Assembly (NCBI GenBank): GCA_963971425.1
Contig: OZ020525.1
Location: forward strand, 14,948,187-15,012,186
DNA from: Bryoerythrophyllum caledonicum
Taxonomy: Eukaryota > Streptophyta > Bryopsida > Pottiales > Pottiaceae
DNA length: 64,000 nt
Direction of reading: 5' to 3'
Shown: in pieces, positions 3,875-13,422 of the stretch
How positions within the stretch are numbered: the stretch's first letter is position 1
How the letters are laid out: every line of letters begins with the position of its first letter
The notes under the pieces: generated by a model
Databases searched by the model: none
Seen by the model: only the letters and a program-made list of their open reading frames with translations
Told to the model about the DNA's origin: nothing
Program-made: the position numbers and the translations under genes

Positions 3875-4230
3875 AAGGTAAGCCCCCCTAAAACCGACAA
3901 GTTAAGGAATGTGCATATATGGAGAAAGGAGATCATTCTACTAATATTTTTCAGTGATAGCCAATAGAATTGCAATTCCAACCCAAGTGATTTCATATTT
4001 TTTCAATGAAAACTGAATTAGTTATGAATTTTCAAAGTGTGCAGCCATGTTTAGTGGGTGGCCGGCAGTAGGTACCCCCCATAACCAATGACCAAAAGTA
4101 AGGGTCTTGACTATTAGCAAACCTCCATTTGGAGCTGAATTGGTGGTAATGGGATGGAAGAGGGTTGGATATACCCCAATTTTATGGGCGTTGGCTATGG
4201 GTTTTTGTTGGTTATTGGGGGGCTTACCTT
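3875..4230 (-). mobile_element. MITE family B (AAGGTAAGCCCCCC termini), copy 1
   Basis: The left tip AAGGTAAGCCCCCC and right tip GGGGGGCTTACCTT are perfect inverted repeats. The interior matches 6772-7113 and 13081-13422 in the opposite orientation. It is 356 bp with no coding region. Flanking bases leave the target duplication (TA or TAA) undecided, so the superfamily (mariner or Harbinger type) is open. Confidence 0.8.
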
Positions 4231-5956: not shown

Positions 5957-6303
5957 TTCTTCTTCTTCTTCTTCTTCTTCTTCTTCTTCTTCTTCTTCTT
6001 CTTCTTCTTCTTCTTCTTCTTCTTCTTCTTCTTCTTCTTCTTCTTCTTCTTCTTCTTCTTCTTCTTCTTCTTCTTCTTCTTCTTCTTCTTCTTCTTCTTC
6101 TTCTTCTTCTTCTTCTTCTTCTTCTTCTTCTTCTTCTTCTTCTTCTTCTTCTTCTTCTTCTTCTTCTTCTTCTTCTTCTTCTTCTTCTTCTTCTTCTTCT
6201 TCTTCTTCTTCTTCTTCTTCTTCTTCTTCTTCTTCTTCTTCTTCTTCTTCTTCTTCTTCTTCTTCTTCTTCTTCTTCTTCTTCTTCTTCTTCTTCTTCTT
6301 CTT
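5957..6303 (+). repeat. Perfect (TTC)n microsatellite, about 115 units
   Basis: The 347-bp run of TTC shows no interruption. It starts at the last base of the LINE stem-loop, so it probably grew from the element's short TTC-type 3' tail. On the complementary strand this is (GAA)n, a motif known to form triplex and sticky DNA when long. Confidence 0.97.
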
Positions 6304-6462
6304 GCCGTATTTGAGCATGATAAGGATCAAATATTGAAATGACCTCCAAATGAAACATGTTAGTTGAAGAATCTTCAATCCAAAGGTATATGTCTTCCTA
6401 AAATTCAGTACATTTTTTGTATCTTAAAAGTAAAATACGTGACCGTATATATGGTACCTATT

Positions 6463-6591: not shown

Positions 6592-6771
6592 CTTGACAAA
6601 TTATAGTATTAGCTACATTTGTTGGTATATAGTATTGTCAAACACTAGAAACTATAGTTGGTATAGTCATAGATTAGGATGAGATATATCAAGTAGACCC
6701 TTTCCAAACTAACTGAAGAAGCCCAAATTTGCAAGGTTGTGCCCATTACAAGTCTGTTAGATAACCCCCTC

Positions 6772-7113
6772 CTAACTTACCAAAATCCATAATTGACATC
6801 TATAAAATTGGGGTATAACCAACCGACTTTCATTCCATTACCACCCATGCAATTCCAAATGGAGATTTGCTACTAGTTACAACTCCTTACTTTTGATCAA
6901 TGCTTATAAGGGATACCTATTGACAGCCACCGACTAAACATGGAAGCACACTTTGAAAATTCATAACTAATTCACAGTCATAAAAAAAAATTGAAGTCAC
7001 TTGAGTTGAAATTTTAATTCTATTTGCTATCAATGAAAAATAAATTGGTAGAATTCTTTCCTCTCCATATATGTACATCGCTTAAGTTCTTGTTTCCGGG
7101 GGGGGTTTACCTT
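6772..7113 (+). mobile_element. MITE family B, copy 2
   Basis: The sequence is collinear with 13081-13422 over its whole length (for example CTATAAAATTGGGGTAT, then CTCTCCATATATG, then GGGGGTTTACCTT). The left terminus is more diverged than the right. No coding region. Confidence 0.65.
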
Positions 7114-7448
7114 GAAGACGACAATTGTATAGTCTCCGTATCAAGATTGCTATCTTGTGAGCCGTGAGCACTGAATTTTTTTATTTTTTTTCCACAATTC
7201 TTTTACAAACTTTGAAAGCAACGCCTATGGCCGTAGGTTATATTTAGTCTATCTTGACATATGTAAAAAATCATTTAAAACTCTACAATATTTGGACATA
7301 TTGAAGTCTGAATTGTTGACAACTTGATGGTCTTAGAGCAACAATTTTTCTTCAAAATGAAAGGGGCACTTATGGGTTTGGTATTTAGGTTAGGGTAACG
7401 AAACAGGTTTGAATTACTCATTGGTCGTATTTGTATTTATTTCATTGA

Positions 7449-7612
7449 GAATGGAGCTCTCCCAATAATTGAAAAATTAAAAGGACTAATGGAAGGCCAT
7501 ACCCTTACAATACATAGATGATACCCATATAATACCAGGGCCATATCCATATAATACCTAGGTGATATCCATATCATACCTAGGTGATATCCGTGGTGTG
7601 AAAACCACCTTT
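7449..7612 (+). repeat. Dispersed GGTGATACCCAT minisatellite repeat, copy 2
   Basis: About four units of the type TAATACCTAGGTGATATCCA lie at 7515-7600. It ends in AAAACCACCTTTAATTGAG, like copy 1 (GAACCACCTTGCAAGG). Confidence 0.6.
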
Positions 7613-7987
7613 AATTGAGAATTTGACATACTTCAATAAAAAGTGTTTGATACCGACGATTGTGTATGGTATGAAGCACGGAAACACATTCATGTTGTAT
7701 AGCGTACTATAAAAGACGTGGTGAATTCTCTAAATTATCACAATTTCTTATGAATTTCATACAATACTCAGTTTTGTCTACATGTAATACACAACAATAC
7801 CTTGGTTTATGGATGGATCAAATAATGGAATAGAGTTGTTCGGTAATGTGTTAAATCATTCCATGTGTTTTAATTAATATAAGATGGGACATTGACATAC
7901 GCACAAAAAGACTCCAACAATTACAAAGATGATATCAAACAAAAGTAGGTTCCATATAAAATTAAAAAAACAATCCAAATAGAGGAA
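7613..7987. other. Spacer before the methyltransferase-like pseudogene
   Basis: AT-rich. It would hold the 3' UTR of the minus-strand gene that ends at 7988. Nothing else recognised. Confidence 0.3.
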
Positions 7988-10040
7988 TCACGAATCCTCT
8001 GCCGAAAAGTCAACAAAGTCATCCTCGTCCAAACAAGGGGCACTACTATTCGACCCACTACCATCAGCCTCATTGTCTACAAACTGCCTTGCGATGGACC
8101 TATGATGGGGTGCCCAAGGAACACTTGGAGGGGATGATTGTGCTGCCATCGCATTTGCAACACCACCATCCCAAGGAGTCAAATCATATGTCCGCGGAGG
8201 GCTATTAACCAGCTTTGACAACCTTAACAACATCTCCGCCCACGTTGTTGATGGTGAAGCCATCAATGACCTCGACCAATTGCAAAAAATCAAAGCAATC
8301 ATATTGTTAAAGTCAGAAATAAAATTACAAACTCTCTAAATCACACTAATGCAAAATTCACCAAAGAAGTAGAGAACTTACAAGTTCTCTTGCGAGCCGT
8401 CTTCACCTCTGGCTCATCGTCATCGAGCTCCAACGGGCGCTTACGAGACTCCTCCTACAGCGCTGGTGCCATTGCTGACTTCACCTCCACCGATCTCGGA
8501 ATCAAGGGTCGGAGGACCCCCTCAACCAAATCCGGGTCAGACTCCAATGCCAAGATGTGGCGCTTTAGAGCCTTGCAAGCCCTGATTGATGCCCCTTACA
8601 AGATAAACAAAATAATTAGTACTAGAGTTGTAATACAATGAAGGATAATCAATTTAACGTAGTAAGAATACTTACCAGTAGATGCTGTCAAATCAAAAAC
8701 TACGTCGTCCTCCTGGGTGCAAAGGTCAATCAAAGCCTCCATGAGGTTTGTAGACTTCTCCCACGCTCCCCGTCATGGCTCCATGGTGGTCCCTCTCATC
8801 GTCAGCGTATCCTATGTCATAAGATTGGTCAAGTGACCATCCGAGGACAGCTGAATCAGCTCCTTCGCGAATCAGCTCCACCATGTCGTAGAAAGAAAAA
8901 GGGGTTGTTGACTTGGACTTCCTCACAAAACACTTCACAATGAAGCACTTGTCAGTGCGCCCGGGCTGCCCATCGCGCGAGAGTGGAAAGCCATGAATGA
9001 CAAACCACTTTGTCTCCTCGACGAACTCTACCCAATCTGCCCAACCAAGAAGTTCATTGGAAATGAACTTCGAGTCGGGATAAGACACGATGAGCGGCGC
9101 TTCGTCACAAAGCAGCGCCCCGGCCATCTCAAAACAATGGTAAATGAAAGGGGATTCCCTCTTGCCTCTCTTGTTCAGCTGAGTTGGATGCTCGTTCCAA
9201 CTGGGCACTTTAGTGCCACAATGAATCTTTGGGACCGGCAACCCCTCCGGCACTTCTATGATCACCATGTACACCAAACCAAGATCGCAAGGAGCTCCAC
9301 GCAAGGTTCGGAGCTTAGAACCAGCATACGCCTTCGCAAACTGGCGCAACTCGGTCCAAACCGGGGGGTAGTCAGCATCGTCGAAGATATTGTTGAAAAG
9401 AGATGCATGATGGAGAGGGCACTCTCACACATCATCGACACTCCAACAGAAGAATCAACTTGTTCGATCACTGGGATCGTGTACTCTATCTGCAAAGGCT
9501 TCGTAATGAATGTTGAGGGTCGGCTACTGGCTGAGGACAAAATTCCTTGCAATAGTGCGACCTCAACAGGAATGGCAAGTGATGCACCCACCCCAAATTC
9601 AGCAATGAGCTTCTCGGGTCCCTCCGTCAACACCAACACTGCTAGCTCTTTGTTCCTCTCCTTGACTTCCTTCTTCAGTGTCTTGGCGGTCTCCTTCTCC
9701 ACCCTGAGGGCTTCTTTCTCCGCCGCCTTAGCCGCCGCCTTCGCCGCCTTTGTAGCTGTTGCCTCTCTCTCCTTCGGAGACAACTATACATCCAATTACG
9801 CAGCCATTGAGGGGACCGATGGAGGAAGCATCCCCTCATCACCATCTGAGACGGGTAAGGAGTCACAGCGAGACCTTAGCTGCATCTCCTTCCTTGGGGT
9901 AGGATCGGAATCCTTCAGCTCCAAGAACCAAGGGCACTGCTCCAAGTGGTGACAAGAGAAGCGTCGCAACTGCGCCTCCGTGAAGATGCACTGGACATTA
10001 GTGGGATCCGTCTACATATTCAAGCGAATCGGAAGCAGTT
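7988..10040 (-). pseudogene. Decayed multi-exon gene with beta-class N4/N6 methyltransferase-like domain
   Basis: Plausible exons run about 10016-8674, 8597-8379 and 8300-7988. The first junction (G|GTAAGTATT to TTGTAAG|GGGCATC) keeps phase. In order it shows: LRRFSCHHLEQCPWFLELK; an Ala/Lys/Glu-rich coiled coil (KEREATATKAAKAAAKAAEK, 9777 down); CDLGLVYMVIIEVPEGLP, a degenerate match to a (D/N)PP(Y/F) catalytic motif; LLCDEAPLIVSYPDSKFIS; then STNLMEALIDLCTQEDDVVF followed by DLTASTGASIRACK and RHILALESD. The last part fits the C-terminal SAM motif (VLDxFxGSGTT...IGxE) and the motif order of beta-class amino methyltransferases. Two stops near 9790, an in-frame TAG near 8455 and frame changes near 9410 and 8750 break it. 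The C-terminus is acidic (DEDDFVDFSAEDS). The family assignment comes from motif reading only. It may be host-derived or the partner gene of the adjacent Harbinger element. Confidence 0.5.
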
Positions 10041-10291
10041 CGGGCTGCATGGCTCCCTTGGCAACAAGCTCTCTCCAGAAGTAGCGAAGCAATGCCAAAA
10101 TAACCCATTAAAAAAATCAAAAAGAAAAAAAAAATATTATCATAAAATGCCTAATTTTGAGTTTTTTATCCTATAGTCTCTACCCTAGAGAAGGGGAAGA
10201 ACACTAATTTGATATTTGGTGTTCCACTACATTTTATGTTATAACCTTTCTCCACCACATAACTCTAATTATGATTCTCTAGAAAATTAGA

Positions 10292-10434
10292 GGCGCTTTA
10301 CACCATGGACCAAGAGGACTGACCAAGAGAAATCATTTATTTTCATGGTCACGGCTCTTGGTCTAGAGCCGTGACCATGAAAAATGAAAAATCATTTTTT
10401 GAGTGTCCTAGTTACTTCTCATAGTGTAAAGTGG
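10292..10434. mobile_element. Small foldback element with Harbinger-like tips
   Basis: The tips GGCGCTTTACACCATG and CATAGTGTAAAGTGGA are imperfect inverted repeats similar to the GGCGCTGTTTACA tip at 30328. The centre is a perfect 18-bp stem with a 6-base loop (10341-10358 / 10365-10382, TTTCATGGTCACGGCTCT). It lies in the spacer between the methyltransferase-like and transposase genes. Confidence 0.6.
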
Positions 10435-11507
10435 ATTTGGACCGGGACAAGTATGGGCTGATTTTTTTAATGTTATCTGAAAAGGGCGGATTTGGAGTTT
10501 ACCTCGCCATTCACTCTTTCACCCTCCCCTTCTTCATCCTCCTTGTTTCCACCTTCCCTCTTTTCTTCTTCTCTCTTTTCTTCTCTGCTCTTGAAATTTG
10601 AGCAACTAGGGTTGCAATGGAGGGGATGAGGAGGGACCTTGTGTTGATGCTAGGGTTGTATATGTGCTTGCACATGCTTGTTTCACACGTTGTGAGCATG
10701 CAAGCACTGACTTTACAAGGAGTATGGGAGAAATTGGCAATTTTCAGCATGTTTTTAGAGAGTATGGAACGAAGAATACGGAGCATCTTGAGTTTTGCAA
10801 GACAAGGTGGATTTACGGATCGATTATTGTTGGGATCATATAGTGAAGGACAACTTAAGGTTAGAACCCGAGTTAAATTTGCTACTTTCAGATTCCTTTG
10901 TGAGAAATTAGGGCTATTTTTGCGAAAACAAGATACAACTTTCAGGAATTCAATTTATGTGGAAACTAGAATTGCAATTTTGTTGACAAGGCTAGGATCC
11001 GGCAATGGACCATTGCTTATAGAGGATTTATATGGGATTGCTGAATGTACGGTTTCAAAAAATTTGAGAATTTTGTAAAGCCGTTAGACAACATTTGCAA
11101 CGTATGTTTGTTCAAATGCTTAGTGAATCACAGTTTAGAATTTTACCTTAAGAATTTGAAGCTCTACATGGCATTCCATACGTTGTACGCGCAATAGATG
11201 GGTCGCGTATCGCAGTATTGGCGCCAATTGTTGGTAGAGAAGATTATTATTGCCTGAAGTCATTCCATTTAGCTATTCTTCAAGAAATCGTCGATGTCAA
11301 ATGGAGGTTTTGGGATTACAAATTTGGTTGGGCGGGTAGTCTTCATGATTCGGTTGTTTTTCAAATTACAAAAATTGGAAGAGCTTGTGTGGAGGGGAAA
11401 CTGCATCCGTACAAGTTGATAGGGGATACAGCATATCCCGTTAGACCGTGGATGTACTGTCCATTCAAGGGAGGAAAAACTGAATTGTCACAAATCCATG
11501 GAAATTG

Positions 11508-11520
11508 GAATTTCATTCAA
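11508..11520 (+). repeat. Left target-site duplication of LINE B
   Basis: GAATTTCATTCAA occurs here and again at 12672-12684, on either side of the LINE. It is a perfect 13-bp direct repeat cut from the Harbinger coding sequence. Confidence 0.92.
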
Positions 11521-12671
11521 AAAAAAAAAAAAACGCCGATCCCCAAAGGAGACCGGCGTGAATAAAGTGTCTATTCGTTCCACTACTAAGACCATGCCCA
11601 AAGGACAAGGAATTAGCGAGCTGGAACTACTTCTCTCTCTCGAGGGTAGACACTATGTAACAAGAAACCAAAGAAACACAAGTCAACCAACCAACCAACG
11701 AATCACAAACCAGGCAACTAACCAACGAACTAACCACAAACCAGGCAAGTAGTCAAAAACCCTTAAAATCAACTAGTCATGAAAATCAAGGCGGGGGGAG
11801 AGTTTAGGGGGGGTCCTGTGTATCGGGGAGGGCTTGGTTGTTTTCAATTTTGTGTTTATGTAGAAGAATGGACATGGCATGTTGGATAGCTATGGTGTTA
11901 ATGTTTTTAAAGGATGCTTTAATTGTTTCAATGGGTATCTTGAAGGTATCTTCTAGAGTTTTCATAGATGGGATAAAGGTGGTGGCTCGAGCGCCGGATG
12001 TGATTACCATAAGGGGGTCGACATTCCATCCGAGGGCGATGATGTCGTCAATAAGGGGTTGGTATTTGTCTATTTTGTTTTGGATTGTTTCCGGGGAAAA
12101 TCTATCGTTGCAATATGTGAATTCAATGAATTGAATGGTGTAGTCTTGGTTGACGTTATCCGGTGGTGGGTCATTGTATGGTAAACCTTTGACACAAAGG
12201 ATGTCCGGTTTGAGCCTAGCGTTGCAATGACATCTTTGGGTCGTACATGAGCATGGGAGTAGCCACGAGGGGACCGTATTTTCTTGTGGATTGTTATTGA
12301 AAGTGCCGGCGTTCATTAGTATAAAACATCGCGATTTATTGTGGGAGGTGATTAGTTTTCGGACTTCCCATACTACTTTGTTATGTCTTTTAACAATTAG
12401 GGAGTGTATGTGGTGGTTTTGGCATTTGAGTAGAACATGTAGCCATATGTCGGGGTCCGTTGAGGGGCATATGGGGCATGTTATGGATGGAAATCTTTCT
12501 ACTCCAAAGAAGAGTTGTTTACGGGCGTTTCCCATGTATTGACCGGTACGGAATTTGATAAGGCATGTTATTTGTGAATCGGTGACGATGGGGTTTTTCC
12601 AAAAATTTGTAGAGAGTTCATTGTCTATGTCATTGTTGTTGATCCACTTTTCTATGTTAGGAAGGTCATCC
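11521..12671 (-). mobile_element. LINE copy B, 5'-truncated, with zinc-finger and restriction-like endonuclease C-terminus
   Basis: The minus-strand frame 12535-11804 (243 residues; the open sequence continues upstream as NNNDIDNELSTNFWKNP, then ITCLIKFRTGQY) encodes CPIC...HVLLKCQNHHIHSLIVKRH, a CCHC-type finger. KPDILCVKGLPYN and IQFIEFTYCNDRFSPE follow, which fits a PD-(D/E)XK restriction-like endonuclease as in R2/NeSL-type LINEs. Reverse transcriptase is missing because the copy is truncated at its 5' end. The 3' UTR contains CAACCAAC-type repeats (read on plus) and ends with a stem-loop (CGCCGGTCTCC / GGGGATCGGCG). A tail of 14 T in the sense direction follows, which is not the usual poly(A). 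The 13-bp duplications show target-primed insertion. Confidence 0.82.
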
Positions 12672-12684
12672 GAATTTCATTCAA
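12672..12684 (+). repeat. Right target-site duplication of LINE B
   Basis: Perfect copy of 11508-11520; transposase coding sequence resumes immediately after it. Confidence 0.92.
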
Positions 12685-13080: not shown

Positions 13081-13422
13081 AAGGTAACCAACAAAAGTCC
13101 ACTGCCAACGCCTATAAAATTGGGGTATATCCAACCCTCTTTCATCCCATTACCACCAACTCAGCTCCAAATGGAGATCTGCCAGTAGTCAAGACCCTTA
13201 CTTTTGGTTGTTGGTTATAGGGGGTACCTACTATTGGCCACCCACTAAACATGGCTGCACAGCTTGAAATTTCATAACTAATTCAGTTTTCATCGAAAAA
13301 ATATGAAATCACTTGGGTTGAAATTGCAATTCTATTGGCTATCACTGAAAAATATTAGTAGAATGATCTCCTCTCTCCATATATGCACACTCCTTAACTT
13401 GTCAGTTTTAGGTTCTTACCTT
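13081..13422 (+). mobile_element. MITE family B, copy 3
   Basis: It starts AAGGTAACCAACAAAAG and ends GGTTCTTACCTT, and is collinear with the reverse complement of 3875-4230. It is 342 bp, non-coding, and sits between the LINE tail and the promoter region of the DnaJ-type gene. Confidence 0.78.

Follow-up and report, generated by a model that had tools for sequence, protein, structure and literature searches.

A decayed methyltransferase-like gene in Bryoerythrophyllum caledonicum is most probably the end of a two-gene Mutator-like transposon

Mutator-like elements (MULEs) are DNA transposons of plants, and several of them carry an accessory gene in addition to the transposase. This arrangement is described for MuDR (mudrB), VANDAL/Hiun (vanB, vanC) and Kaonashi (Ulp1) in the available portions of two accounts (PMC6446971, PMC13317346). 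The MULE groups listed there have target duplications of 8-11 bp and a SWIM-type finger, features shared by the element described here, the finger as judged by pattern. The word 'methyltransferase' has no occurrence in the main text of either account, although SET and some further domains of accessory genes are named there. MULE accessory genes are a leading case of transposons countering plant silencing. Here we describe a decayed minus-strand gene with a methyltransferase-like domain in a 64,000-nucleotide stretch of B. caledonicum (assembly GCA_963971425.1, contig OZ020525.1, positions 14,948,187 to 15,012,186), hereafter the window. The remnant is most probably a terminal fragment of a large two-gene MULE that has recently multiplied in this genome.

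Intact relatives of the gene are present in a second assembly. A prokaryote genome collection scanned with 60 residues gave 231 matching stretches, two of which (L009 and L010) encode relatives, with best segments 56 and 60% identical. Both contigs are labelled as part of the Synechococcales AVDCRST_MAG81 assembly, are intron-rich and share the same intron within motif I of the methyltransferase-like domain. Because they are intron-rich despite this label, these contigs with intron-bearing transposon genes are probably eukaryotic contamination of a public metagenome-assembled genome. L009 was read manually as a gene of seven exons. The transposase of the element is also found in this assembly (G001:C80, 88%).

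Copies in the window's own 437-Mb genome were sought with exon 1 of the L009-type gene as the query. The search gave 1713 candidate places, and all 150 that were scored match at E 6.2e-56 or better, with 63-71% identity to the exon of the other assembly. Nineteen ten-kb copies were fetched; they were picked for near-identical scores, and the sample therefore favours young copies. They form three subfamilies, within each of which long aligned pieces are 96-99.9% identical. One shared right end, followed by unrelated flanks, is seen in the 18 of 19 copies compared; L048 was left out as its match breaks off early. The two copies followed through to the other end measure approximately 12.60 and 12.95 kb. 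The terminal inverted repeats are about 21 bp long (CAACGACGCTA.. and CAGGATTGCTA..), with GTGAGC subterminal repeats inside the termini. Exact target duplications of 9, 9, 10 and 10 bp (CGCAATACCC, TATACATTA, TGCGTCCAT, GTGAAAATAG) flank four of five copies, the left end of the fifth lying outside the 601 bases examined. The high copy number, shared termini and target duplications bear out the suggestion of the original prediction that the gene is the second gene of a transposon. We hold the identity of the element with high confidence.

The copy in the window is truncated and decayed. Its parts are as follows:

7142..10096, minus strand: 5'-truncated copy of the MULE-like element, comprising 2.95 kb at the 3' end of a full length of about 12.6-13 kb (91.2% identity to L043)
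7142..7162, plus strand: terminal inverted repeat at the outer end of the decayed copy, CAAGATTGCTATCTTGTGAGC (1 mismatch in 21 to the terminus of near-identical copies)
9388..10092, minus strand: part of exon 5 upstream of the methyltransferase-like domain, including the Ala/Lys coiled coil at about 9640-9783 (tblastn with L009 exon 5)
8677..9424, minus strand: first part of the methyltransferase-like domain; VIIEVPEGLP, at about 9236-9265, occupies the position of motif IV (match to L009 exon 5, alignment with bacterial enzymes)
8595..8675, minus strand: GT-AG intron of 81 nt within motif I, splitting DLTASTG^ASIRACK
8381..8594, minus strand: exon 6, the remainder of motif I, ASIRACKALKRHILALESD, with one in-frame stop (translation, spliced profile match)
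7988..8275, minus strand: exon 7, encoding the acidic C-terminus up to the stop codon (46% identical to L009 exon 7, E 2.5e-18)

The alignment to L043, a member of subfamily 2, comprises 2967 bases between 10096 and 7159, and 0.02 matches to the terminus at 7142-7162 are expected by chance. The upstream part of exon 5 is 53% identical to L009 exon 5 over 235 residues (E 3e-65, tblastn), and the first part of the domain matches the same exon in two segments of 58% and 70% identity. The motif-I intron is 81-84 nt long in five intact copies. The window copy is without four exons and the first 77 residues of exon 5, which is retained from residue 78. Exons 1-4 of L009 have no window match better than E 5 (tblastn), and the element transposase none better than E 0.18. 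Decay is evident from frame shifts near 9390 and 8863 and from in-frame stops, of which three lie in 9388..10092 and two in 8677..9424, downstream of the 8863 frame shift. The minus-strand peptides, the intron-bearing decayed gene and the upstream Ala/Lys coiled coil of the original prediction are thus all present, and an intact relative has kept the coiled-coil stretch as well. The predicted extent of the remnant to 10450 is not borne out. Homology breaks off sharply at 10096, and leftward the copy reaches its terminus at 7142.

The two complete copies contain two head-to-head genes diverging from one shared intergenic region. Gene 2, to which the remnant belongs, has seven exons and encodes an N-terminal module with an invariant WDGNHRH, the coiled coil, a beta-class methyltransferase-like domain and the acidic tail. 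Tandem repeats of approximately 126 bp and 220 bp lie upstream of gene 2 (L043:3505-4515 and L050:3531-4740) and differ between two subfamilies. Gene 1, the transposase, lies to the left on the opposite strand and has two exons, with stop-to-stop frames of 699 + 492 or 736 + 457 residues in the two copies. By eye it encodes an N-terminal Cys/His region and a DDE-like core with FDHVKRV ... FMADSAGAN ... C..HW, and by pattern a C-terminal SWIM-type CxCxnCxH; the C..HW and CxCxnCxH patterns are present in both copies. The transposase has 2745 candidate places in the genome, of which 104 were scored. When these are compared with the 150 scored places of gene 2, 32 pairs are no more than 15 kb apart, all of them head to head and none in other orientations, a count of pairs among the matches listed for both genes rather than a share of all elements. 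Random placement gives 1.2 expected pairs of any orientation, with 5 or fewer in 200 random draws. A transposase copy with four internal stops is located at G000:C14:14852879-14854030, about 94 kb before the window start.

Plant MULE transposases typically have a Cys/His region, a core with C..HW and a SWIM-type CxCxnCxH, in this order. Together with the 9-10 bp target duplications, the sequence motifs of gene 1 point to a Mutator-like transposase. Two results count against this assignment. The transposase reaches no Pfam MULE or SWIM profile, the best match being Transposase_mut at E 0.16, and it has no solved-structure match. Because there is no profile match, MULE membership rests on the duplication length, the short motifs and the domain order. 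The element could instead belong to an unnamed DNA transposon superfamily other than Mutator that creates MULE-like target duplications, and the missing profile matches and the very short inverted repeats (~21 bp) with GTGAGC repeats would fit such an origin. The length of the target duplications and the domain order argue against it, since the available portions of PMC6446971 name SWIM fingers, along with duplications of 8-11 bp, as traits of MULE groups, and we consider a separate superfamily improbable.

The domain in gene 2 is, by sequence, of beta-class amino-methyltransferase ancestry, with motif IV preceding motif I. The spliced remnant matches Pfam N6_N4_Mtase (PF01555) with 29.8 bits (E 7.4e-7), above the curated cut-off of 26.7, and a second window construct also passes it with 27.4 bits; the unspliced exon gives E 0.016. 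Several searches used a 282-residue remnant query that includes approximately 30 out-of-frame residues (8863-8770) before RGAWEKS, and the Pfam match lies after them. All five element members match PF01555 at E up to 1, the best at 3.3e-7, and member 1 scores 30.8 bits. PHROG DNA methyltransferase families match the remnant at E 1.1e-7 and 1.2e-6, and NCBIfam CcrM at E 6.6e-4, far under its equivalog cut-off. The solved adenine methyltransferase PDB 5hfj, which we take to be from H. pylori, is matched at E 0.0016, or 3e-4 with a five-row profile. In a MAFFT alignment with seven enzymes of bacteria and phages VIIEVPEGLP lines up with their D-x-P-(Y/F)-G column, in agreement with the predicted IV-then-I order.

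Two observations temper this assignment. The profiles cover only the last part of the domain, the profile comparison in the alignment with bacterial and phage enzymes spanning its last 66 columns, and the motif-IV half is placed by alignment order. AlphaFold2 models have a mean predicted local distance difference test score of 32.8 (three-row alignment) and 41, too low to yield a usable fold. In tblastn searches of phages and plasmids the remnant gives weak matches, with lowest E values of 4e-4 and 8e-4, in the motif-I segment. Six records, four from phages and two from plasmids, match exon 1, all at E 3 or higher, exon 5 has no match in phages, and no relatives were found in IMG/VR.

The catalytic motifs are altered. 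In intact copies the catalytic (D/N/S)PP(Y/F/W) position reads DVPE in 16 of 18 rows, the remaining two falling outside the search pattern and three further loci being without such a frame. At the position of the S-adenosylmethionine-binding FxGxG all five spliced intact copies have D(L/I)TASTG, and LALE and its flanking residues are retained. The original prediction had proposed that intact homologues lacking both motifs would speak against a methyltransferase. Both are indeed lost, yet the homologues still match the N6_N4_Mtase profile, and therefore the ancestry stands while the claim of an enzyme falls with the motifs.

The domain nevertheless is, judged from substitution patterns, under purifying selection. 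The ratio of nonsynonymous to synonymous rates (dN/dS) up to motif I is 0.10-0.25 in 10 pairs from five copies; for exon 1 one pair gives 0.08, and in two no value could be computed. Such low ratios argue that the element keeps the gene-2 protein. Against this, dS is near saturation in most pairs, which makes the values rough, and bounds could not be set in some cases (the first half of exon 5 in two subfamilies and exon 1 in one). The domain is thus probably in use with ordinary methyl transfer lost, and gene 2 probably encodes a MULE accessory protein whose methyltransferase domain has been repurposed and is probably inactive.

Gene 2 could instead encode an active enzyme whose catalytic site is atypical (DVPE, TASTG) and which methylates element DNA (4mC, 6mA or other) to mark or protect it; this would also explain the PF01555 match and the purifying selection. 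Both LALE, which follows the second strand, and the final glycine of motif I are retained, and the variants DIPYG, DLPFG and DLTMGSG are tolerated in bacterial and phage relatives. Moreover, 4mC enzymes of bacterial origin are described from Marchantia and bdelloid rotifers in the available portions of PMC8885841 and PMC12344493. However, the aromatic residue of motif IV is a glutamate in the 16 DVPE rows, and the first glycine of FxGxG is a serine in the five spliced copies. The catalytic aromatic of motif IV stacks on the flipped base, and METTL14, whose motif reads EPPL, is an earlier case in which activity was lost. A working enzyme is accordingly hard to favour, and we rate it as improbable.

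We propose that a prokaryotic-type N4/N6 DNA methyltransferase was the source of the gene-2 domain, which would then have lost or changed its catalysis and may now be a DNA-recognition scaffold that aids the element. An accessory role through DNA binding without methylation is a plausible, if still tentative, reading. The scaffold would most likely counteract host silencing of copies of its own element, much as VANC acts in VANDAL MULEs; taken by itself we regard a counter-silencing role as possible but uncertain. Alternatively it could act with the transposase at the element ends, and a role as a transposition or target cofactor is rather doubtful. By analogy, counter-silencing appears the most likely task, a transposition cofactor the second and an unusual working enzyme the third. 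A bolder suggestion, and an unlikely one, is that a captured bacterial-type amino-methyltransferase is the element's epigenetic tool. It would either write a mark foreign to the host (4mC or 6mA) or recognise element DNA through a dead fold; the element would thereby gain a chromatin state of its own, which would account for the recent burst. A resemblance of the N-terminus to ParB is not significant: PHROG 1033 gives E 0.11, there is no Pfam match, and neither of two weak PDB matches is ParB.

The original prediction had placed the remnant head to head with a Harbinger transposase as a possible two-gene element. The neighbour is real:

10602..11508, plus strand: PIF/Harbinger-type transposase remnant, an unrelated neighbour (DDE_Tnp_4 E 2.1e-10, open reading frame (ORF) 11152-11565)

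That gene 2 is the partner gene of a PIF/Harbinger element is suggested by the adjacency of this ORF, in this window only. The head-to-head layout arises because the element copy is truncated at 10096, and the actual partner is the Mutator-like transposase. No inverted-repeat pair with a TWA duplication encloses the gene and the Harbinger transposase; three weak, chance-like pairs have other 3-bp duplications. In a set of 55 loci, including the 19 ten-kb copies and two upstream stretches, matches to the Harbinger protein stay at E 0.21 or above and those to the Harbinger-side DNA at E 0.037 or above (30 bases), an absence that holds for those loci. For the copies examined we consider a Harbinger partnership practically refuted. 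A decayed single-copy host nuclear methyltransferase gene acquired laterally would account for the beta-class ancestry and is refuted by the copy number and mobility, given the 150 of 150 matching places, many of them near-identical.

The Harbinger ORF is broken by a minus-strand 3' part resembling a long interspersed nuclear element (LINE; 11523-12676, with a CPIC..HVLLKC..H finger). It seems to resume from 12676, and by eye GAATTTCATTCAA stands on both sides of the LINE-like insert. Between the element fragment and the Harbinger remnant is a fold-back at 10290-10440 with perfect 19-nt arms (10340-10358 and 10365-10383).

Elsewhere in the window a repeat of approximately 340 bp occurs in three copies and two orientations (3887-4214, 6765-7107 and 13085-13412), with short inverted ends resembling those of miniature inverted-repeat transposable elements. 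The copies at 3887-4214 and 13085-13412 are 92% complementary and were considered as long terminal repeats of a 9.5-kb element. This was rejected, and the arms are read as separate small repeats because of the third copy at 6765-7107 and their own short inverted ends. At 5957-6304 a (TTC)n tract some 345 bases long directly follows a 3' end resembling a LINE or a short interspersed nuclear element, with a CGCCGG..CCGGCG hairpin; similar ends occur elsewhere in the window. A B-box frame lies beside a CCT frame, an arrangement known from CONSTANS-like genes; together with a match to DUF7895 this marks the window as land-plant DNA.

A search limited to open-access literature turned up no account of a MULE that carries a methyltransferase-like gene, and the available portions of the MULE literature link none of the known accessory genes (vanC, Ulp1-type) to methyltransferases. 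We did not see the combination of a bacterial-type methyltransferase-like domain with a MULE accessory gene described in that literature; each part alone is known. An accessory protein derived from a methyltransferase and kept by selection, encoded by an element that is abundant, recently mobile and found in two assemblies, turns the use of DNA-modification folds for escaping or rewriting host methylation into a testable question. In addition, some genes annotated as 'DNA methylase' in plant genomes may belong to transposons.

The element differs from known MULEs in that its accessory gene has a beta-class methyltransferase-like domain, a coiled coil and the WDGNHRH module. With the beta-class enzymes (PF01555; those beside HindIII-type endonucleases, CcrM and 5hfj) it has in common the IV-then-I order, KSxxLMExLI, LD....G and LALE. 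The enzymes have (D/N/S)PP(Y/F/W) and FxGxG, whereas the element protein has DVPE and TASTG, and introns and fused N-terminal parts are found in gene 2. The Marchantia 4mC enzyme and the bdelloid N4CMT are likewise bacterial-type amino-methyltransferases in a eukaryotic nucleus, according to the available portions of PMC8885841 and PMC12344493, and N4CMT carries SPPY in those of PMC11065753. As described there, these are host genes, whereas the gene presented here is transposon-borne and without the motif.

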